DNA of 64,000 nucleotides, taken from Clostridia bacterium (lineage in GTDB: Bacteria; Bacillota; Clostridia; Oscillospirales; Acutalibacteraceae). Each line of letters begins with the position of its first letter. Position 1 is the stretch's first letter. Positions 25,998-35,551 of this stretch are shown here, piece by piece. Under the pieces are notes generated by a model. It searched no databases and was not told where the DNA came from. It saw only the letters and a list, made by a program, of their open reading frames with translations. The stretch spans positions 124,001 through 188,000 of the forward strand of contig JAFWYP010000001.1 in assembly GCA_017517665.1 (NCBI GenBank), given 5' to 3'. Position numbers and translations under genes: made by a program.

Positions 25998-27440
25998 ATG
26001 AATTATATCAGTAAAAAAGAAAGAAACAGCTTTATGGCAGGCTTGGCGGGTCAGAACATCGTTTATTGCATGGTCGGTGCATCGTTCTTTACATATTTTA
26101 TGACCGATATCGCCATGTTTCCGCCCGCAGTTGTTACCGTGCTTCTTCTGTTAATGAAAATCTGGGACGGTGTCAATGACCCCATTATCGGTGCACTTGT
26201 TGACCGCCGACGTTTCAAAAGCGGAGAAAAGCTCAGACCTCTGCTCAGATACACACCTGTTCCCGTCGGTGTTTTCACGATTCTTTTGTTTATTGTCTTT
26301 TCAACTGCCGAAAGCCTTTTATGGCTTCGTGTTTCATATTTTGTAATCATGTATCTCTGCTGGGATATTACTTACACTTTGCAGGATGTTGCAATATGGG
26401 GTATGACCTCGGTTGTTTCCCCTAATTCCGATGAAAGAGATAAATTCGTTCAGTGGGCAAGAACAATAGGTTCGATTTTCTACGGCGTTTTCAGCGCATT
26501 GATTCCTATGGTAATGGAATCCGTTGCCCTTGCTTCGGGCAATTCTCTTGCATTGATGACTTTTGTTTTTGCGGTGATTTTCGGTCTCGGCGGTGCTCTT
26601 ATAAGTGCAAAATGCTATAAGGCACAGGAAAGAGTCCGTATTGTTCAGCCTGAACAGCAGCAAACATCATTGACGGAATGCTTCAGGCTTCTTTTTCAGA
26701 ATAAGATGCTTCTTCTTCTTACGCTGGCAAGCATTTTCGGCTCGCTCGCATTCGGTAATAATCTGATTACCTATTTCTTTAAATATATGCTTCCCGACGG
26801 TCAGTTCGGCGGATTTATCGGCGCGCTCGGTATTACCACAATATATTCGGCATTGACTTATGCACCGAGCTTTATCGGCATGATTTTTGCAACAAAGCTC
26901 AGGGATATCTGCAGAGGCTACAGAAATCTTATCATTGTTGTTCAGGTATGCACAATCATTGGCAGAGTTGCGGCATTTCTTATCGGATTTGAAGGCAAGA
27001 ATATGCTTATCGGTATCGCTGTTATGGCGATTCTCAATATTCCTTCGGGTGCGGTAAGTATAGCTCAGACCTCGCTTTTCTGCGACAGCGTTGACTATAT
27101 GGAATGGAAAACAGGAAAGCGCACCGAGGGTGTTACCTTTGCAATGCAGACTTTCTTCACAAAGGTTTCAAGCGGTATTACCGGCGGACTTGCCACAATG
27201 TCGCTTGGTCTTATCGGCTATCAGGCTGTTGCAGATGTTCCGGGGGCGGTTTATTACGGTACACAGAGCGCAACCTTTGAAAGCTGGATTTGGCCGCTTG
27301 TAATGCTCACACCCGCAATTGCCGCGTTACTTTACATTATTCCGCTTCTCTTCATCAGGTATACTCCCGAACAGAAGGCTCAGGTTGAAAGAGAGCTTGC
27401 AGAACGCAGAAAGCTTAAGCAAGAGGTTGGAGAAATATAA
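25998..27440 (+). CDS. GPH-family glycoside transporter (MelB-like MFS)
   Basis: A 480-residue polytopic protein of the glycoside-pentoside-hexuronide:cation symporter family. The diagnostic loop after helix 2 (WDGVNDPIIGALVDRRRFKSG) and the later DYMEWKTGKRTEG motif are both present; the same pair is found in the transporter at 58028. It imports a glycoside with a cation. Its stop codon overlaps the start of the glycosidase gene by one base (TAATG), so the two are coupled. The ribosome binding site is unusually far from the start, with a hairpin between. Confidence 0.88.
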   Translation: MNYISKKERNSFMAGLAGQNIVYCMVGASFFTYFMTDIAMFPPAVVTVLLLLMKIWDGVNDPIIGALVDRRRFKSGEKLRPLLRYTPVPVGVFTILLFIVFSTAESLLWLRVSYFVIMYLCWDITYTLQDVAIWGMTSVVSPNSDERDKFVQWARTIGSIFYGVFSALIPMVMESVALASGNSLALMTFVFAVIFGLGGALISAKCYKAQERVRIVQPEQQQTSLTECFRLLFQNKMLLLLTLASIFGSLAFGNNLITYFFKYMLPDGQFGGFIGALGITTIYSALTYAPSFIGMIFATKLRDICRGYRNLIIVVQVCTIIGRVAAFLIGFEGKNMLIGIAVMAILNIPSGAVSIAQTSLFCDSVDYMEWKTGKRTEGVTFAMQTFFTKVSSGITGGLATMSLGLIGYQAVADVPGAVYYGTQSATFESWIWPLVMLTPAIAALLYIIPLLFIRYTPEQKAQVERELAERRKLKQEVGEI

Positions 27441-29533
27441 TGAATACTTATTTTAATGAAATTACGTCAACGCCCGTTAATACAGACGGCGGAAAAACGG
27501 TATACAAAATACCTGCAGGTGCGTTTTGCAGTAACGGCGACCTCGGGGTTGTTTTCGATAACGATGAAAAAGGACTTCTTCTTCATCTTTCAAAATGTGA
27601 TTTCTGGAAATTTACTCCGGGTGCACATAAAGACGGTGGAATAAAAACCGCAGGCAGTCTGAGAATCGGTAATGTGGATTTGTCGGAATACAATATTAAA
27701 CAGTATTTTGACAAGGGGCTTCTTGAATGCAGATTCGCAAACACGGAAACTGAGTTGTTTATTGCACCTGAAAACATCGTTTATATTCAGATAAAAGCAC
27801 CCGATACGGAAGCATTCCCGACAGTTGATATTGAGCTTCCCGATACCTGCGGTTCGGATAATTCCGAATTTGAAAAGAACGGAGTAAAGTGCTTTGTCAG
27901 AAAATTTGACGGTGATGAGGTTGAACGTGAAACGGCGGTTGTTCTTTGCTGCCGCAAGATTGACGAGAGCACATCCGACAGCTTTAATAGCGTGCGTTAT
28001 TGCATTTCGGCTGTCACGAATTTTGATGATGCCGACTATACCGACAAAGGTATATCCATGGCGATGAATTGCGATTATGAAGCCGACAAGGCAAGAACGG
28101 AAGAAAAATGGAAAAAATTCTTCTCCGCTTCAAAGGTTACCATTGAGGATAAAGAAATCGAAAGCTTTTATAATTCAAGCCTTTATCACCTTGCAGGCTG
28201 TATGGGCAACAAGGAATTTCCGCCCGGACTTTTCGGCAACTTCATAACTGATGATTTTTTTCCGTGGGCAGGGGATTATCACATGAATTATAACTATGAA
28301 GCGCCGTATTACTGTGTGTTTTCTTCAAATCACCCCGAGCTTTTTGACGGCTACATGGCTCCCGTTAACGATATGGCTGAAAATGCAAAAGAATTTGCAA
28401 AGCTTTTCGGCTGCAGAGGCTATGCATTTCCCGTAAGCTTCGGACCGAAGGCGCTTGATGTTTATACTCAGAAGGACTGCAAGGAACACGGCATACTTTT
28501 CCTCGGTCAGAAAAGCCATGCCGCATATGCCTGCGTAATTCCGATTATGCATTGGTTTTCAACCTATGACAAAGAATATGCGCTTGAAAATTATTATGAT
28601 TTTGTATTGAACACAGCCGCTTTCTGGGAAGATTATCTTGTCAAAGAAAAGGGCAGATATGTTATCAAAAACGATGCGGCGCATGAAATTCCTTATTACC
28701 GCGGCGAAAAATTCAGATATATCACTCATAAGGGACAGATTGAAGCCGTAAATGCAATTAACTCTCTCGGACTTGTCAAACTTCTGTTCAAAGCAGTTTA
28801 TGATATGGCAAAGGAACTGGGTCTTAATTCCGAAAAATATCCCGTATGGCAGGATATCAATGAGAACTTAAGCGATTTCCCGACCTTCATAAAGCACGGC
28901 AAAAAATGCTTCCGTTATTCAAAAAGAGGCATACGCTGGAGAGATGATAATACCGTAGGGCTTCAGCATATTTATCCTGCTTCTCAGATTGGACTTTCAT
29001 CGGGCGAAAAGCTGCTGAAAATTGCAAAGAATACATATTTTATCAATGACAGACGCCTTGATGATAACGGCTCGAATTCATATCTTCCCGCGGGTGCAAG
29101 AATCGGAGTTGACCCCGGATTTCTCATTGAAGGCATAAAGCAGAACATCAGGGAATTCGGACTCCCGAACAGACTTTTCCGCCATCATGGCGGCGGAATC
29201 GAACATCTTACTATGGTTCCTGCAACGGTTAACGAAATGCTCATGCAAAGCCATGAGGGCGTTATCAGGCTCTTCCCTTGCTGGAACAAAAACAGTTCTG
29301 CATCTTTTGAAAATCTGCGTGCAGACGGCGCGTTTCTTGTTTCTTCCGAGCTTAAAAATAAACAGATAACCTCTCTGAAAATCAAAAGTCTCAAAGGAAG
29401 AATATGCAATGTTGAATGCTCCGATATAAAGAGTGTTGTGAGAGAATCGGATAAAAAGGAAGTTCCTTTCAAAAAAGACGGCTACACCGTTTCTTTCGAA
29501 ACAAAAGCAGGTGAAAAATATATTCTGATATAA
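27440..29533 (+). CDS. GH95-like (alpha/alpha)6 glycoside hydrolase, cytosolic
   Basis: A 697-residue protein without a signal peptide. The N-terminal ~220 residues are a beta-sandwich with NGDLGVVFDNDEKG, like the super-sandwich domain of GH95/GH65 enzymes. From about 225 a helical barrel follows, with FPPGLFGNFITDDFFPWAGD and YHMNYNYEAPYY closely resembling the GH95 active-site region (WNGDYHLNIN in known members). GH95 acts on alpha-L-fucosides or alpha-L-galactosides; the true substrate here is not known and other GH65-related activities are possible. It is coupled to the GPH transporter, which suggests that the imported glycoside is cleaved inside the cell. Confidence 0.7.
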   Translation: MNTYFNEITSTPVNTDGGKTVYKIPAGAFCSNGDLGVVFDNDEKGLLLHLSKCDFWKFTPGAHKDGGIKTAGSLRIGNVDLSEYNIKQYFDKGLLECRFANTETELFIAPENIVYIQIKAPDTEAFPTVDIELPDTCGSDNSEFEKNGVKCFVRKFDGDEVERETAVVLCCRKIDESTSDSFNSVRYCISAVTNFDDADYTDKGISMAMNCDYEADKARTEEKWKKFFSASKVTIEDKEIESFYNSSLYHLAGCMGNKEFPPGLFGNFITDDFFPWAGDYHMNYNYEAPYYCVFSSNHPELFDGYMAPVNDMAENAKEFAKLFGCRGYAFPVSFGPKALDVYTQKDCKEHGILFLGQKSHAAYACVIPIMHWFSTYDKEYALENYYDFVLNTAAFWEDYLVKEKGRYVIKNDAAHEIPYYRGEKFRYITHKGQIEAVNAINSLGLVKLLFKAVYDMAKELGLNSEKYPVWQDINENLSDFPTFIKHGKKCFRYSKRGIRWRDDNTVGLQHIYPASQIGLSSGEKLLKIAKNTYFINDRRLDDNGSNSYLPAGARIGVDPGFLIEGIKQNIREFGLPNRLFRHHGGGIEHLTMVPATVNEMLMQSHEGVIRLFPCWNKNSSASFENLRADGAFLVSSELKNKQITSLKIKSLKGRICNVECSDIKSVVRESDKKEVPFKKDGYTVSFETKAGEKYILI

Positions 29534-29722: not shown

Positions 29723-29751
29723 TTGAAAATATTGTACAGTAATGTTATAAT
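29723..29751 (+). promoter_or_regulatory. Sigma-A promoter of the dehydratase-type operon
   Basis: TTGAAA (29723-29728), 17 bases, TATAAT (29746-29751); the transcript starts about 25 bases before the CooC-like gene. Confidence 0.8.
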
Positions 29752-29782
29752 ATATATATTATCAACTTGGGAGTGACACTTA

Positions 29783-30550
29783 ATGAAAGAAAACGCAACT
29801 ATAATTGCTCTTTCGGGCAAAGGCGGAGTGGGAAAAACATCAATTTCCGCCGCAATAGTCAAGCTTCTTGTGCAGGTTTATCCCGATAAAAAGATTCTTG
29901 CCATTGATGCTGACCCTGCGGTAGGTCTTTCAACCGCACTTGGAATCAATGTTAAAATGACGATTGATGATATACGCAAGGAAATTGTAGAAACCGTTGA
30001 GGACGGTCAGACGAGGGCGGCGATTGAGCTTCTCGGTGATGCACGCTATAAGATTTTTGATGCTCTTGTTGAAACGGACGGCTTTGCATTTATCGCCGTC
30101 GGCAGACCTGAAAGCGCAGGCTGTTACTGCAAAATCAACACCTACCTTAAAGAAGTAATCAGCATTCTTTCAAATGAATTTGACTATGTTGTTATTGACG
30201 GTGAGGCGGGTATTGAGCAGATAAACCGCCGCGTTATGGAAAAGGTTTCACATCTTCTTCTTATTACCGATGCAAGCAAAAAAGGTACTCAGGTTATTTC
30301 AACAATCAAGAGCGTTGCTGATGAGCTTGTAATGTATAAAAAAATCGGTGCAATTGTTAACAGAATTCCCGATGAAAGTGTTATTCCTTATATTGATACA
30401 AACGGAATACCTGTTTTATCGTATATCCCCACGGATTCAAACCTTGCGATTTACGATATTGAAGGTAAGGATATCACGAAGTTGCCCGATGATTCAAATG
30501 TTGTTGAGGGCGCAAGAAAAGCCCTTGTTGAAATGGAGATTTTAAAGTGA
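29783..30550 (+). CDS. CooC-like nickel/iron-sulfur enzyme maturation ATPase
   Basis: A 255-residue MinD/ParA-type ATPase. Deviant Walker A is SGKGGVGKTS (11-20), switch I/II regions include AIDADPAVGLSTALG and YVVIDGEAGIEQINRR, which match CooC/AcsF, the ATPases that insert nickel into CO dehydrogenase or acetyl-CoA synthase. Here no CO dehydrogenase catalytic subunit is present; instead the gene opens an operon of two HgdB-like proteins, an activase and an acetyl-CoA-synthase-like domain. It may mature a metal site in one of these. The gene overlaps the next by four bases (GTGA). Confidence 0.85.
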   Translation: MKENATIIALSGKGGVGKTSISAAIVKLLVQVYPDKKILAIDADPAVGLSTALGINVKMTIDDIRKEIVETVEDGQTRAAIELLGDARYKIFDALVETDGFAFIAVGRPESAGCYCKINTYLKEVISILSNEFDYVVIDGEAGIEQINRRVMEKVSHLLLITDASKKGTQVISTIKSVADELVMYKKIGAIVNRIPDESVIPYIDTNGIPVLSYIPTDSNLAIYDIEGKDITKLPDDSNVVEGARKALVEMEILK

Positions 30551-31752
30551 GAGATTTAAAGCATCTTTATGAATTCGAAAATTTGCTTCAGGAAGCAAAT
30601 AATGCACTTGTCCGGAAAGCAAAGGCAGACGGCGGAATAGCTCTGGGTTATACCTGCTATCATATTCCCGAGGTTTTGCTTAATTGCGGAAACTGTTTTT
30701 CCGTAAGACTCCGCGCACCGCGCACAGGCTCGATGGATATTGCAACTTATTATATGAGCAACTTCCTTTGCGGCTATTCAAAGGCGATATTGGAGCGCGC
30801 AATTGAAGGGGGATACAACTTCCTCGATGCTCTTCTTGCAAGCGAAACCTGCTCGGAAATGAACAGAGCCGCTGAGCATTTTGAACTGCTCAATCTTGTT
30901 GAAAACGATAAGTTTTTTCTGACTTTTCTTGATATGCCGTTTAAGATTGCTGACCACACGGTTAAACACTATGTAACGCAGACGAGAAACAAAATCCTCA
31001 ATAAAATGGCAGAGGTTTATGGCGTTGATACATCGGATGCGGCTCTTCTCAAAGCAGTTGAAGAGCATAACGAAGTTTGCCGCATTATGACTGAAATCGG
31101 CAATTACAGAAAAGAAGATAATCCGAGAATAACAGGCTATGAATACCATATTCTAAGCCTTATTACATATTGTTGCCCGAAGTCTCTTATTCTTCCCATG
31201 CTTCGCGAAACTGCAGAGGAGCTCAAAACCCGCGAACCCGATGCAAAAAAGAATTTCAGAGCAAAAATCGTTGTTGTCGGCTCGGAAATGGATGACCCCG
31301 ATTTCACTGCCCTTATCGAAGACAGCGGTGCACTCGTTGTTGCGGACAGATATTGTTTCGGCTCCATGCCCGGCAGAGAAGAAATTAAAATCAATCCCGA
31401 TGAGGATGTTTTAACGCAGATTTGTCTGCATTATCTCAGAACAAGTCAGTGCCCCCGATATATGAGCCACGAAAAGGTGCAGGAACGCAGAGATTTTGTT
31501 AAGCATCTTGTTGATGAATATCATGCAGACGGTGTTATGTATGAGCAGCTCAAATTCTGCGAATACTGGGGCTATGAAAGAGCTCTTGCTTCTTATGTTA
31601 TGAGCAACGATTACGGAGTGCCCACTGCGGCGGTTGACAGGCAGTACACCGCTTCGGCTTCGGGACAGTTGCGCACCCGCGTTCAGGCTTTTGTTGAAAG
31701 TCTTGAAATCAAGAAAATCCAGAAGGAAAGGCAGGCGAAAGGAAATGGCTGA
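30547..31752 (+). CDS. 2-Hydroxyacyl-CoA dehydratase-type subunit (HgdB/BcrB family), 401 residues
   Basis: The protein has the full HgdB-type pattern: TCYHIPEVLL near 36-45, cluster cysteines C75 (FLCGYSKA) and C102 (ASETCSEMNR) and a third, C338 (LKFCEYWGYE), the positions that bind a [4Fe-4S] or double-cubane cluster. The family includes 2-hydroxyacyl-CoA dehydratases, benzoyl-CoA reductase subunits and double-cubane cluster reductases. All need an ATP-driven activase, which is encoded two genes downstream. Start is GTG 30547, overlapping the CooC-like stop; the next gene overlaps its end by 8 bases. The substrate is unknown. Confidence 0.85.
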   Translation: MRDLKHLYEFENLLQEANNALVRKAKADGGIALGYTCYHIPEVLLNCGNCFSVRLRAPRTGSMDIATYYMSNFLCGYSKAILERAIEGGYNFLDALLASETCSEMNRAAEHFELLNLVENDKFFLTFLDMPFKIADHTVKHYVTQTRNKILNKMAEVYGVDTSDAALLKAVEEHNEVCRIMTEIGNYRKEDNPRITGYEYHILSLITYCCPKSLILPMLRETAEELKTREPDAKKNFRAKIVVVGSEMDDPDFTALIEDSGALVVADRYCFGSMPGREEIKINPDEDVLTQICLHYLRTSQCPRYMSHEKVQERRDFVKHLVDEYHADGVMYEQLKFCEYWGYERALASYVMSNDYGVPTAAVDRQYTASASGQLRTRVQAFVESLEIKKIQKERQAKGNG

Positions 31753-33277
31753 TCTTGGTAAGCTTTATACCGATGACCGCAAAGCGATTCTCAAACACAG
31801 AGAATGGCGCGGATTCAAGGATACAATGTATGATTATTACCGCTGGCTTGTCACATGGAAAGATATGATTGTTATGGTACTTAAAGCTCCGATATCAACG
31901 GTCAGGGGTCTTTGGAAGTATCGCTGGATGGCATCTTATCTTTCGACTCCATCTTTTATTGACAGGCATACCGCAGGTCTCAGAGGCACGCATCTTCGCA
32001 TTGTTCACCTTCATTTCAATATGATTGTAAAACACGCAACGGGGCTTATTCACACCTCTTTTGTTGCGGATGAAAAAATTAACCCCAAAAACAAACTTTC
32101 AAAGAAAATAGTTCTTACGGATGAAATTATTCCGAATGAAATTTTTTCAGGATTCCCGAATCTTACGGTTATTCCGCTTCAGACAATCCCCATCATCCTC
32201 ACGTCAATGGTTGACCAGCAGATAACTCCGCCTTACCTTGAGGTTACTGAAAGCTTTGGTGTACCCGCTGATGTTTGTCCTCTTCCGAGTGCGGAAGCAG
32301 GCGTTGCAATTGATGACGATTATCCCAAAATGGGTTGTTGCATGGTTGCAACCAATATGCCTTGCGACGGCTCTGTTATGAACTCAACTTTTCTTGACAG
32401 ACGCCTTAAGCTTCCCGTTCATCTTTTCAACATTCCGCTTCGTTATAACGACGAGGATGTTCAGGAATATGCTGTTGAAGAAGTCAAGGAATTAATAAAA
32501 TTTATTGAAGAACAGACAGGGGAAAAGTTTGACTGGGATGTCTTCTTTGAGGCACTTGAAAATTCGAATAAACAGCTTGAATACGAGCTCGAAAAATGGG
32601 ATATCAATAAAACAAAATATCCGCAGATGACGGGCGCAGCTTTCTGGCTTTACAGAATTTATTATTTTAACCTCTCGGGCGGTGTTGATAAACGGTTCCT
32701 TAAAGTGGATAAAAAAGTCAATAAACTCATGATGAAGGGCTATGAGAATAAAGAACCCGTTTCGAAAGAAATGCGTCACCGTGCAGTTGTCTGGAGTTGC
32801 CCCGCTAACTATTACACAAGTTTTGCGAACTGGCTTGAAAACTGCTGGGGCATGAATGTTGTTATGGATATGGAAACGATGATTTCTTATATCAAATATG
32901 ATACCGAAGATAAAGAACGGGCTCTCAGGGATGTTGCAAAAACATATCAGCGTTCAATCATGCGTAAGCATACCAAAGGCGGCTACAGAAATGTTGTTGA
33001 TGAGCTCTGGAGAATTGTAGAGGAATACGATGCCGATACGGTTATTATGTATGACCAGATTTCATGCAAGGGCATGGACGGTCTCGCAGGCATCTTTGAT
33101 GACCAGGCAAGAGAGCGCAATATCAATTTTATCTGGGTCAAGCAGGATCTGATGGACCCCAGAACAATTTCAAGGCGCGATATGCGTGAGCAGGTTAATA
33201 AATATATGCAGACCGTTCTTCAGGAGGAGCCTCTTGACCCCTCTCTCATGGATTTTGAAGACGATTTGGCTTGGTAA
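31745..33277 (+). CDS. 2-Hydroxyacyl-CoA dehydratase-type subunit, long form, 510 residues
   Basis: A second HgdB-like protein, longer than usual because of an extra N-terminal region of ~110 residues (basic and aromatic, including WLVTWKDMIVMVLKAP). Candidate cluster cysteines are in PADVCPLPSAEAG, TNMPCDGSVMNS and DQISCKGMDG, spaced like those of the other subunit. The pair probably forms a heterodimer, as in HgdAB. The start is ATG 31745 with AAAGGA just upstream; an in-frame start at 31634 lies inside the previous gene and is unlikely. Followed by the activase after 12 bases. Confidence 0.8.
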   Translation: MADLGKLYTDDRKAILKHREWRGFKDTMYDYYRWLVTWKDMIVMVLKAPISTVRGLWKYRWMASYLSTPSFIDRHTAGLRGTHLRIVHLHFNMIVKHATGLIHTSFVADEKINPKNKLSKKIVLTDEIIPNEIFSGFPNLTVIPLQTIPIILTSMVDQQITPPYLEVTESFGVPADVCPLPSAEAGVAIDDDYPKMGCCMVATNMPCDGSVMNSTFLDRRLKLPVHLFNIPLRYNDEDVQEYAVEEVKELIKFIEEQTGEKFDWDVFFEALENSNKQLEYELEKWDINKTKYPQMTGAAFWLYRIYYFNLSGGVDKRFLKVDKKVNKLMMKGYENKEPVSKEMRHRAVVWSCPANYYTSFANWLENCWGMNVVMDMETMISYIKYDTEDKERALRDVAKTYQRSIMRKHTKGGYRNVVDELWRIVEEYDADTVIMYDQISCKGMDGLAGIFDDQARERNINFIWVKQDLMDPRTISRRDMREQVNKYMQTVLQEEPLDPSLMDFEDDLAW

Positions 33278-33289
33278 AGGAGTAATATT

Positions 33290-34084
33290 ATGAAATATTT
33301 CGGCGGATGTGACGTCGGTTCAACATATACAAAATGCGTTATTCTTGATGAAAACGGAAAAATTGTTGCCGCCGTTACAAACAGAAGCAAAATTAATCCC
33401 GTTGCAAGTGCTGAAATCGCTCTGAATGATGCGGTTGCGCAGGTTGACGGACTCGGCTCAGCAGAAGAGCTTACATACCTTATCGGCACCGGTTACGGCA
33501 GAAACAAAGTTCCCTTTGCAGATGAAAACATCTCGGAAATCAGCTGCCACGCTATGGGCGTTCATGTCACAAACCCCGAGGTCAAGGCTATCATTGATAT
33601 CGGCGGACAGGATGTCAAGGGTATTTCAATTGATACCGACGGCACCGTTAAAAACTTTGCAATGAACGATAAGTGCGCTGCGGGTACGGGCAGATTCTAT
33701 GAAGCAATGGCTAATGCTTTTGAAATGACTCTTCCCGAATTCTCAAAGCTTTCACTTGAGGCAAAGAATACAATTCCCATCACAGCGCAGTGCACCGTTT
33801 TTGCTGAAAGTGAAGTTATTTCACTCGTCGGTGAAGGCAAACCCATGGATGAAATTGCCGCAGGTATTCAGCTTGCCGTTGCAAAAAGATGTTTTGTTAT
33901 GGCTAAAAAAGCAGGCGCGTCCGACAGTATAACCCTCACAGGCGGCTGTGCAAAGAATGACGGCCTCAAGAAAGCTATCGAAAAGGTGCTTAAAATCAAG
34001 GTCGTTGAGCTTTCAACTGACCCCCAGCTCATGGGTGCACTTGGTGCGGCTGAATATGCACGTCAGAAAGGTCTGGATAAATAA
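33290..34084 (+). CDS. ATP-dependent activase of the dehydratase-type enzyme (HgdC/BadF family)
   Basis: A 264-residue ASKHA-fold protein that donates one low-potential electron per round of ATP hydrolysis (archerase). ATP-binding segments are GGCDVGSTYTK (5-15) and IIDIGGQDVKG (101-111). The cysteines that bridge the dimer [4Fe-4S] cluster are C129 (NDKCAAGTGRF) and C168 (TAQCTVFAESE), at almost the same positions as in HgdC. The length is standard. Its presence makes it likely that the two HgdB-like subunits are active redox enzymes. Confidence 0.93.
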   Translation: MKYFGGCDVGSTYTKCVILDENGKIVAAVTNRSKINPVASAEIALNDAVAQVDGLGSAEELTYLIGTGYGRNKVPFADENISEISCHAMGVHVTNPEVKAIIDIGGQDVKGISIDTDGTVKNFAMNDKCAAGTGRFYEAMANAFEMTLPEFSKLSLEAKNTIPITAQCTVFAESEVISLVGEGKPMDEIAAGIQLAVAKRCFVMAKKAGASDSITLTGGCAKNDGLKKAIEKVLKIKVVELSTDPQLMGALGAAEYARQKGLDK

Positions 34085-34085
34085 T

Positions 34086-34241
34086 ATGGAAATTGTTTTA
34101 ATAATTCTCGGTGTTGTTCTTGCCCTTTTTGTTGTAACTTTCACGATCTACTTCTTCAACCTTGATATGAAGCTTATCCGCAAGGTTTATGACTTTCTCG
34201 GCAAGCATTATGACACTATGAAAAGGGATAGAAAACTCTGA
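34086..34241 (+). CDS. 51-residue single-pass membrane protein
   Basis: It starts one base after the activase stop and ends overlapping the next start (TGATG), so it is firmly embedded in the operon. Residues about 3-25 form one hydrophobic helix (IVLIILGVVLALFVV), followed by a basic cytosolic tail (KLIRKVYDFL ... MKRDRKL). No family is recognised. It may tether the operon's complex to the membrane. The ribosome binding site is inside the end of the activase gene. Confidence 0.65.
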   Translation: MEIVLIILGVVLALFVVTFTIYFFNLDMKLIRKVYDFLGKHYDTMKRDRKL

Positions 34242-34924
34242 TGAATTTTTTTGATTCTTTGATTTTTGAAACCGAAAAACTGACATCGGATTTTTTGGGA
34301 AATGAATTTCCAAAAGGCACACCTTGGAAGGATTGCGGTGAGAGTCAGATAATAATGAGGCGGGATACAGCTTTTGAACTTGAGGGAGTCGGCTTCAATC
34401 TTGTTACCTCGTCAGATGTTTCTGACGGTATAATTCTGATCGGAGATGACCTTGATAAAATCAAAGATAACCGAAGATTTGCGCGCATCACTCTTGTGCA
34501 GATTGATAATATCGGCGATGAACAAAAGGAATATAACCTGATAAAAAAGATTGATTATGTGAAATATCATACTTTCCCCGACGGATATATGATGCGAAGC
34601 ACCTCCCGATCACATAAAGAAGCTGTCCGTGTTTCAAAAAAAGCAATTGCAGACGGCGCTGATTTTTGCGGAATCGGCTCGTTGCTGATTGATAAATATA
34701 AAGAAATTCCTGAGGTAAAGGCTGTAAAGGTGATATTCATAACCGCATCTGAAGCTGATTATCCCGAAACAGAAAGAATTGCTGAAAAGAATTATGCTAT
34801 TGCAGAAACGCTCAATCATGTTATGAATAACATAGTTTTTGATTGCAAGACATGCAACCTCAAAGCGATTTGCGATGAAGTTGAGGGCATGAAAGAGCTT
34901 CACTTTAACAAGGCAGATAAATAA
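34241..34924 (+). CDS. Stand-alone acetyl-CoA synthase beta-subunit-like domain
   Basis: A 227-residue protein resembling part of the CODH/ACS beta subunit (AcsB/CdhC): RRDTAFELEGVGFNLVTSSD corresponds to the region where the beta subunit has an NTAYELG...FNLVTT-type sequence, followed by an IGDDLDKI segment and the KVIFITASEAD strand. The C-terminus has CKTCNLKAIC followed by DEVEGMKELH, like the end of ACS. The A-cluster Cys motif in the middle of the full-length enzyme is absent, so acetyl-CoA synthase activity is not expected. Its role beside an activase and two HgdB-like subunits is unknown; it may be a metal-binding or CoA-binding accessory. Confidence 0.6.
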   Translation: MNFFDSLIFETEKLTSDFLGNEFPKGTPWKDCGESQIIMRRDTAFELEGVGFNLVTSSDVSDGIILIGDDLDKIKDNRRFARITLVQIDNIGDEQKEYNLIKKIDYVKYHTFPDGYMMRSTSRSHKEAVRVSKKAIADGADFCGIGSLLIDKYKEIPEVKAVKVIFITASEADYPETERIAEKNYAIAETLNHVMNNIVFDCKTCNLKAICDEVEGMKELHFNKADK

Positions 34925-34928
34925 AAAC

Positions 34929-34953
34929 AACCACTTCACGGATGTGAAGTGGT
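34929..34953. terminator. Bidirectional terminator
   Basis: AACCACTTCAC and GTGAAGTGGTT arms with a short loop, then a T-rich run; located between the operon end and the convergent methyltransferase. Confidence 0.8.
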
Positions 34954-34960
34954 TTCTTTC

Positions 34961-35551
34961 TTATATGTTTTTTCTGCCTGAAACAATGTATATTTCATCT
35001 GTTGAAATTTTTGTGTCAATGTTAAAATAAGGTTTCATTATTTCTGCCAATTCATCAGCTTCTGGAAGAACAGAGGATATTTTTTGTGCTTTACCCGAAT
35101 GGTGTTTTATGAGAGCTTCTCTGCTCATTCCGTGGGCAACGGTTATTCTGCCGTCTTCTTTAAGATGTTCCGATAGATTTTTAAATAGCAGCTTTCGGTT
35201 TGCGAAGTGTGGAAATGCGTTGTAAATAACTATGCAGTCGAATTTTTCGCCTGGTTCGTAAGTTTCTGCATCGGCACACAAAAAAACAATATTTTCATAT
35301 TCCGAAAACTTGCTTTTTGCAATTTTAATCATATTCTCAGAAATATCAACGGCGATGCATTTCCTGACTTTTCTGCTTATATAATCGGGAATAAGAACAC
35401 CCGTTCCGCAGCCTGTGTCAAGAACGGTTTTTCCTTCCGTAACACAGGCTGTGTCAAGTATTTTATCAATTTTCCATTGAATTTTACTCATATCCGAATC
35501 CCACGAACCCGCAAAAGAATCAAAGAAAGCGGCAATCTCTTTTTTATCCAT
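34961..35551 (-). CDS. Class I SAM-dependent methyltransferase
   Basis: A 196-residue Rossmann-fold methyltransferase. Motif I is VLDTGCGTGVLIP (about 43-55), motif II acidic residue in CIAVDIS, and motif IV region is FDCIVIYNAFPHF. The first 30 residues resemble UbiE/COQ5-like small methyltransferases (FFDSFAGSWD). The gene is alone and convergent with the dehydratase-type operon. Substrate unknown. Confidence 0.8.
   Translation of the reverse strand: MDKKEIAAFFDSFAGSWDSDMSKIQWKIDKILDTACVTEGKTVLDTGCGTGVLIPDYISRKVRKCIAVDISENMIKIAKSKFSEYENIVFLCADAETYEPGEKFDCIVIYNAFPHFANRKLLFKNLSEHLKEDGRITVAHGMSREALIKHHSGKAQKISSVLPEADELAEIMKPYFNIDTKISTDEIYIVSGRKNI

Follow-up and report, generated by a model that had tools for sequence, protein, structure and literature searches.

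A six-gene set conserved in many anaerobic gut bacteria resembles a strongly reducing iron-sulfur enzyme powered by ATP, with two acetyl-CoA-synthase-type helpers

Only a handful of double-cubane enzymes have been assigned a role. One of them, the benzoyl-CoA reductase protein BzdNO, was called in 2025 a first double-cubane example with a defined catabolic function, and that paper gives Cys36, Cys73, Cys100, Cys263, Cys293 and Cys327 of BzdN as the six double-cubane ligands of the reductase, gives His131 and Tyr97 as active-site residues of BzdO, and describes a BzdNO double-cubane protein that was made in E. coli (PMC11971306). Class I benzoyl-CoA reductases (BzdNOPQ, MbdNOPQ) include two different ATP-driven activase subunits, and two further relatives are DCCP (NF040772) and the (R)-2-hydroxyisocaproyl-CoA dehydratase HadBC, which also belongs to this fold family and has an activase. 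For a separate enzyme, the nickel acetyl-CoA synthase (ACS), nickel is loaded by AcsF.

Here we describe a locus with likenesses to both kinds of system. It lies in a 64,000-nucleotide stretch of DNA from a Clostridia bacterium (hereafter the window), in which all six open reading frames (ORFs) are found on the + strand between 29783 and 34924 (Table 1). Sequence searches against Pfam, NCBIfam and PDB bear out the family assignments. The set is conserved in many anaerobic gut bacteria and has the look of a strongly reducing iron-sulfur enzyme powered by ATP, accompanied by two ACS-type helpers. No description of this six-gene combination was found in open-licence papers, which is weak evidence of absence.

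Table 1. Features of the locus, in window coordinates
Feature	Position	Strand	Basis
Promoter-like site, TTGAAA-17-TATAAT with TG	29723..29751	+	Consensus match only
CooC-like MinD/ParA-type ATPase, 255 aa, GKGGVGKT and C114-Y-C116	29783..30550	+	CooC 3kje is best PDB match, E 1.2e-15
HgdB1, BzdN/DCCP-like subunit, 401 aa	30547..31752	+	PF06050, E 1.6e-90
HgdB2, BzdO-like subunit with N-terminal extension, 510 aa	31745..33277	+	PF06050, E 1.3e-48, residues 156-488
Activase (BcrAD/BadFG ATPase), 264 aa, C129 and C168	33290..34084	+	TIGR00241, 215.9 bits versus cut-off 125.4
Mini membrane protein, 51 aa, one hydrophobic span (residues 3-21)	34086..34241	+	Hydrophobicity, homologous loci
ACS-like protein (CdhC domain), 227 aa, C202-x2-C205-x5-C211	34241..34924	+	PF03598, 28.1 bits versus cut-off 24
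Terminator-like hairpin, 11 pairs, usable in both directions	34929..34954	.	Hairpin search
Class I SAM methyltransferase, a candidate associate that is not universal	34961..35551	-	Flank clustering and look-ups

Layout and distribution of the gene set

Successive genes are joined by a 4-bp overlap, an 8-bp overlap, a 12-bp gap, a 1-bp gap and a TGATG junction, where the start of HgdB2 is taken to be the ATG at 31745 (the ORF listing opens at a TTG at 31634). An earlier note on this DNA had described the genes as a six-gene operon with these junctions behind one sigma-A promoter. Each ORF and junction was confirmed, and a promoter-like site is indeed present, but it is a consensus match (11 of 12 positions, the best among 17 sites found) from a class whose excess over shuffled sequences is not clear (17 versus 12.8, s.d. 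2.9). Terminator-like hairpins number 7, compared with 5.3 (s.d. 2.2) in shuffles.

Related stretches were found 301 times in 84,980 species genomes, many of them named gut MAGs, and 80 homologous loci were examined. The same gene order is present in 54 of the 60 loci that have room for all six genes, so the order is not due to chance. The joint system proposed in the earlier note is supported, in that the CooC-like and ACS-like genes adjoin the dehydratase-type genes regularly rather than sporadically. Of 295 genomes from the order, five carry the ACS-like gene and the identical five carry HgdB2 (P 5.6e-11, computed on an assumption of independent genomes that does not hold). The CooC-like and ACS-like genes travel as a pair at loci L076, L078 and L079, and two genomes carry the pair elsewhere; at L050, neither a CooC-like nor an activase gene was found at the locus itself.

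The HgdB1-HgdB2-mini core can be multiplied, and the ACS-like gene is mostly single. One genome (G286) carries four HgdB2 genes and another (G071) carries three, each with one ACS-like gene, and five extra loci contain HgdB1, HgdB2 and the mini gene without a CooC-like or ACS-like gene in the stretch looked at. Two observations count against a shared helper: locus L033 has two pairs of CooC-like and ACS-like genes for two cores, and two ACS-like matches occur in 2 of the 16 first-clade genomes searched.

A second, distant clade has the same parts joined to acyl-CoA dehydrogenases, and thus the earlier remark that acyl-CoA enzymes are missing is true of the six window genes and fails for this clade. 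Its loci L123, L145, L147, L148 and L149 each have two activases, versus one in the window. Carbon monoxide dehydrogenase (CODH) was sought in 30 operon-bearing genomes of the first clade, in three genomes of the second clade and in 20 genomes of the same family that lack an ACS-like match. It exceeded the cut-off in all three genomes of the second clade and nowhere else, and therefore in 0/30 of the first clade. A full-length corrinoid-protein match was likewise found in 0/30 first-clade genomes. Weak PF03599 matches were obtained in 16 of these 30 (five over the cut-off), all of them in frames of 772-941 aa that we read as methionine synthase.

The ACS-like and CooC-like proteins

The suggestion that the protein starting at 34241 is a relative of AcsB/CdhC held up at the level of sequence, given that the Pfam match is accompanied by an hhalign probability of 97.3 (E 2.2e-11). 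The two share a homologous central domain, in which C202, C205 and C211 align on three of the four A-cluster [4Fe-4S] cysteines, whereas AcsB/CdhC exceeds 700 aa and the fourth cysteine and the CGC nickel motif are missing from the aligned ACS-like protein. Its earlier description as a domain without the A-cluster motif is therefore right for these two missing elements and wrong for the three cysteines. Here and below, conservation counts refer to rows with a residue at the place concerned, and some include a sequence twice, because L010/L055 and L012/L063 are probably the same records. The three cysteines are conserved in 74/75, 75/75 and 75/75 sequences, of which 61 remain at 80% identity, and in 6/6 of the second clade. 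Arg130 (75/75) falls on the arginine within LRVSK, a motif of ACS; in ACS this residue, Arg429, is near the CoA site.

The CooC-like ATPase resembles CooC and AcsF in its P-loop GKGGVGKT (75/75), in its CxC motif (76/76, and 6/6 in the second clade) and in having a partner derived from ACS, but differs in that the window genome is without CODH. Among the NCBIfam families shown, no cut-off was reached, and the score against the Fe-S carriers of PF10609 (21.8 bits) is under the cut-off of 27.1. The CooC-like and ACS-like proteins are probably a shared metal-loading pair.

Two other roles for the pair were weighed. The ACS-like protein might be a third subunit that carries a Ni-[4Fe-4S]-type centre and either takes part in catalysis or binds the substrate. 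The ATP-driven complex would then transfer acyl groups, methyl groups or CO in the manner of ACS, as a sort of stand-in for CODH/ACS. The retained A-cluster cysteines, the invariant Arg130 and the CooC partner are compatible with this role, as are the acetate labelling and CO-dehydrogenase activity reported for a Lachnospiraceae organism without CODH/ACS genes (PMC7000372). However, the CGC nickel motif is absent, several cores have one ACS-like gene in common, and the first-clade genomes yielded neither CODH over the cut-off nor a full-length corrinoid-protein match, which makes such a function unlikely. Alternatively, the pair could serve Fe-S clusters or a metal other than nickel, as a delivery route of the Mrp/NUBPL type for this subfamily. 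In favour are a set of three cysteines that would fit a [4Fe-4S] cluster, the lack of a nickel-dithiolate motif and the sub-threshold similarity of the ATPase to Fe-S carriers. Yet the best solved relative of the ATPase is CooC, its CxC is invariant and its partner descends from a nickel enzyme; we regard this route as quite unlikely.

The HgdB1-HgdB2 core and its activase

In HgdB1, C37, C75, C102, C270, C302 and C338 align with the six double-cubane ligands of BzdN and with six cysteines of DCCP. They are invariant in a 90-sequence alignment (87/87 to 89/89, according to the rows readable at each place), in the second clade (4/4) and in the extra cores (10/10, five of which are already among the 90). 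The earlier note had counted three cluster cysteines (C75, C102 and C338), which are kept, although the real number is six.

HgdB2 retains C178, C207 and C441 (91/91, 91/91 and 89/89; 4/4 in the second clade and 11/11 in the extra cores), which correspond, as read from the MbdO alignment, to the cysteines that serve the [4Fe-4S]-OH2 cluster of the O-type subunit. The previously suggested double cubane thus has residue-level support for HgdB1 and none for HgdB2. By places counted from the aligned cysteines, the active-site His131 and Tyr97 of BzdO are absent from HgdB2, where S210 (kept in 91/91) and L180 are found instead.

The activase, whose best PDB match is MbdQ, has both cluster cysteines, as had been noted from the sequence (C129 and C168, 78/78 each in homologues and 9/9 in the second clade). 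The mini protein matches no Pfam family, and its gene is present in homologous loci.

The BzdN-like and BzdO-like cysteines and the ATP-driven activase are thus shared with class I benzoyl-CoA reductases, as are the two activases in the second clade only. The differences are the substituted active-site residues, the single activase of the first clade, the added N-terminal extension, mini protein, CooC-like and ACS-like proteins, and family scores far under the cut-offs. DCCP has CPL and CDG motifs in common with HgdB2, but the present core consists of two different subunits, only three of the cysteines are invariant in HgdB2 of both clades, and the NF040772 scores (138.1 bits for HgdB1 and 60.3 for HgdB2) are below the cut-off of 350. 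The superfamily and the presence of one activase would also fit a plain 2-hydroxyacyl-CoA dehydratase accompanied by passenger genes, but this is very improbable given that HadC has Pro and Ala in place of C37 and C270, that the scores are far under the dehydratase cut-offs (82.5 versus 700 and 28.9 versus 750), and that both of the distant clades retain the supposed passengers.

Proposed working and flanking genes

We give about an even chance to an ATP-driven reductase of the benzoyl-CoA reductase/DCCP type aided by a pair of proteins of nickel acetyl-CoA synthase origin. Once a ferredoxin-like donor has charged it, the activase would hydrolyse ATP to pass electrons of very low potential into HgdB1, which would store them on a double-cubane [8Fe-9S] cluster. 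From there the electrons would reach the three-cysteine [4Fe-4S] cluster of HgdB2, the predicted site of reduction of a substrate that, as a first guess, may be a CoA ester. The mini protein would anchor the core, so that the reductase is probably membrane-bound, although this step is weak because HgdB2 has no hydrophobic span above threshold and the second-clade locus L123 yielded no mini gene. Much as AcsF serves ACS, the CooC-like ATPase would supply the three-cysteine site of the ACS-like protein with a metal that is probably nickel, and the loaded protein may then act in trans on one or several cores, as a metallochaperone or activation partner. Because the BzdNO protein was made in E. 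coli, the double cubane as such seems not to need this pair.

A bolder version, which we put forward tentatively and consider somewhat unlikely, is a new Ni-Fe-S system, in which an ATP-charged double-cubane reductase, together with a Ni-[4Fe-4S] protein of ACS descent that a dedicated CooC loads, would perform chemistry below the ferredoxin potential in anaerobes that yielded no CODH, with one HgdB1-HgdB2-mini core for each substrate in a substrate family. The proposed reductase and helper pair would, in such genomes, link low-potential reduction driven by ATP with proteins recruited from nickel acetyl-CoA synthase, and would offer a client for an orphan CooC and a function for a truncated ACS. 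A family with the double-cubane cysteine signature is also a candidate for strongly reducing chemistry in the gut and rumen.

Clustering of 769 flank ORFs, together with look-ups, placed a SAM methyltransferase gene at 14 of the 80 loci and in the window, with an additional 31% match at L086; in eight loci other than the window it directly follows the ACS-like gene on the same strand. OYE-type reductases occur near a few divergent loci and are not universal.

Composition and conservation of the six-gene set

In order, the set encodes a CooC-like ATPase, HgdB1 (401 aa), HgdB2 (510 aa), an activase, a 51-aa membrane protein (the mini protein) and a 227-aa protein (ACS-like); family searches assign HgdB1 and HgdB2 as the two PF06050 subunits and find in the last protein the CdhC domain of acetyl-CoA synthase (ACS). 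Among the NCBIfam families shown, the only cut-off passed is that of TIGR00241, by the activase (215.9 against 125.4), and none of the six proteins reaches an equivalog cut-off. The window's genome (2.77 Mb, 88.67% complete) has two PF06050 matches and one PF03598 match, all within the set.

The ACS-like protein has matches in five of 295 genomes of the order, and the four relatives among these five carry all six genes in the same arrangement. An HgdB2 alignment run against the same 295 gives strong matches in those five genomes (E below 1e-170) and weak ones in five others (E 3.7e-4 to 1.7e-11), the latter presumably through other HGD-D proteins. Scanning a species-genome collection with HgdB2 yielded 301 related stretches, of which the best 80 loci were examined. 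Their titles name mostly metagenome-assembled Clostridia, Oscillospiraceae, Lachnospiraceae, Ruminococcaceae or Eubacterium, many of ruminant origin, with one Spirochaetaceae and one Erysipelotrichaceae. In 60 of these 80 the sequence extends far enough to either side of HgdB2 for the whole set, and 54 of the 60 have the canonical order. The exceptions are three loci in which CooC and ACS-like genes form a pair placed behind all the other genes (L076, L078, L079), two that lack both genes locally but have the pair elsewhere in their genomes (L048, L075), and one where neither CooC nor activase was seen within the locus (L050). In the other 20 loci, which are truncated by contig ends, seven retain all six genes and 13 retain parts of the set in the same order.

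Features of the window and of homologous loci (L-numbers)
Feature	Location	Coordinates	Strand
Six-gene set, promoter-like site to terminator-like hairpin	Window	29723-29751 to 34929-34954	+
MFS sugar transporter and GH95-like glycosidase, upstream of set	Window	25998-29533	+
Class I SAM methyltransferase, adjoining set	Window	34961-35551	-
OYE/enoate-reductase-type FMN enzyme, near set	L086	5351-7681	
OYE/enoate-reductase-type FMN enzyme, near set	L092	13342-15615	
OYE/enoate-reductase-type FMN enzyme, near set	L011	10485-12551	
OYE/enoate-reductase-type FMN enzyme, near set	L089, L090, L091		
CrtI-like FAD enzyme and NADH:ferredoxin-type reductase, after extra core and past one opposite-strand gene	L192	11735-14460	
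Heme-binding protein IsdE, upstream of extra core on the opposite strand	L190	705-1601	-
Protein without Pfam family, before HgdB genes	L123	14187-15971	-
Protein without Pfam family, before HgdB genes	L149	3506-4909	+
Protein without Pfam family, before HgdB genes (two ORFs)	L145	3665-5639	+
Full-length ACS, 732-aa frame	L169	G787:C18:1116-1586	

Predicted cluster ligands and the ACS-like protein

According to PMC11971306, BzdN residues Cys36/73/100/263/293/327 hold a double cubane and BzdO Cys95/128/380 an aqua-[4Fe-4S] cluster. HMMER alignments place HgdB1 C37, C75, C102, C270, C302 and C338 on these six BzdN ligands and also on six cysteines of DCCP, whereas in HadC two of the places are taken by Pro and Ala. 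None of the six varies in the readable rows of 90 HgdB1 sequences (87/87 to 89/89), and all are kept in each of 10 extra cores, of which five already belong to the 90. HgdB2 C178, C207 and C441 are likewise kept (91/91, 91/91 and 89/89; 11/11 in extra cores). Ser210 (91/91) and Leu180 of HgdB2 stand at the distances of His131 and Tyr97 in BzdO, as that source numbers this class I benzoyl-CoA reductase. By these residues, the two-subunit layout matches that of class I benzoyl-CoA reductase, though the pocket differs. Judged by scores and residue tests on sequence, the core is a member of a known superfamily that falls in none of its named families.

The ACS-like protein aligns with 15 full ACS sequences at an hhalign probability of 97.3 (E 2.2e-11), with C202-x2-C205-x5-C211 on the ACS motif C-x2-C-x8-C, residues 506, 509 and 518 in Moorella numbering. 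These cysteines are kept in 74, 75 and 75 of 75 sequences, across which residues of the window's protein are kept on average at 50% and its remaining two cysteines show no conservation. Arg130 (75/75) falls on the Arg of the ACS motif LRVSK. The fourth cysteine and the CGC, in contrast, are present in all 15 ACS compared and absent here. An earlier note had described this domain as lacking its A-cluster motif; given the alignment and conservation, the wording becomes three of the four cluster cysteines, without the nickel-dithiolate motif.

The CooC-like protein retains GKGGVGKT (75/75) and CxC (76/76). In acetogens, nickel is inserted into ACS by the CooC homologue AcsF, and a CooC next to an ACS-derived protein with three cysteines is the same partnership again. 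CODH over the cut-off was found in none of 30 first-clade genomes with the operon (relatives of the window's set), single absences being provisional because completeness is given for only 5 of the 30; one genome, G772, shows a weak match within a frame of 518 aa. Sixteen of the 30 have PF03599 matches, five over the cut-off, all in frames of 772-941 aa, which we read as methionine synthase.

A second, distant clade

A phylum-wide search of 398 genomes with the ACS-like profile matched 77. The small protein was found in two of these, the window's genome and one of another family (G453); the remaining matches fall in longer frames, of more than 700 aa in most cases and about 400 aa in a few, as ACS would be expected to. 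One full-length ACS (L169) scores better against the profile than the other full-length ones, at 59.3 bits. The small form occurs in six of 97 genomes of G453's class, and a search of its order (71 genomes) gave the same six. In L123, a locus of this clade, the ACS-like protein shares 26% identity with the window's.

An activase gene precedes and a CooC gene follows the ACS-like gene in all six. On contigs long enough to show it, the gene order is acyl-CoA dehydrogenase(s) (two in L145 and L149, one at the edge of the stretch in L123), an unknown protein, HgdB1-like, HgdB2-like, two activases, ACS-like and CooC. The predicted ligand cysteines of HgdB1 and HgdB2 are kept in four of four copies each, and the three ACS-like cysteines and the CxC of CooC in six of six. 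Four of the six genomes also have a full-length ACS match, which was not found in G714 and G715 (64% and 83% complete); CODH and corrinoid protein are present in all three genomes tested.

Probable division of labour, candidate substrate and neighbouring genes

One genome carries four HgdB2 genes (G286) and another three (G071), each with one ACS-like match. Five extra loci consist of HgdB1-HgdB2-mini, with an activase in one (L191) and no CooC or ACS-like gene in any of the five stretches fetched. L033 and L088-L091 also have a second core next to the full set, and L092 has a second HgdB2. ACS-like matches number one in 14 of 16 first-clade genomes and two in the other two (those of L033 and L088). 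From this copy-number pattern, core and mini protein look like the enzyme, and CooC with ACS-like like a shared service, which suggests a helper role for the pair. Against such a helper role speak the two CooC-ACS-like pairs of L033 and the production of BzdNO in E. coli (PMC11971306), by which the pair does not appear to be required for a double cubane as such. A hydrophobic span is present in 81 of 83 mini proteins, and HgdB2 has none above threshold; the mini protein was not found in the second-clade locus L123.

By analogy with benzoyl-CoA reductase and DCCP, electrons would be delivered at the expense of ATP through activase, HgdB1 and HgdB2, and the CooC-like ATPase would load metal into the ACS-like protein as AcsF does for ACS. 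For the substrate, our first guess is a CoA ester, since most characterised members of the family are CoA-ester enzymes and acyl-CoA dehydrogenases accompany the second clade. The literature searched yielded no description of such a core coupled to an ACS-derived protein and CooC, and it is a real possibility that the set, through its ACS-like part, is a new nickel-iron-sulfur system.

Several genes recur nearby. The SAM methyltransferase adjoins the set in 14 of the best 80 of 301 loci as well as in the window, and directly follows the ACS-like gene on the same strand in eight (L025, L027-L030, L038, L046, L087). OYE/enoate-reductase-type neighbours occur at several divergent loci, and members of the MFS sugar transporter family reappear around other loci, where their distance and strand vary.
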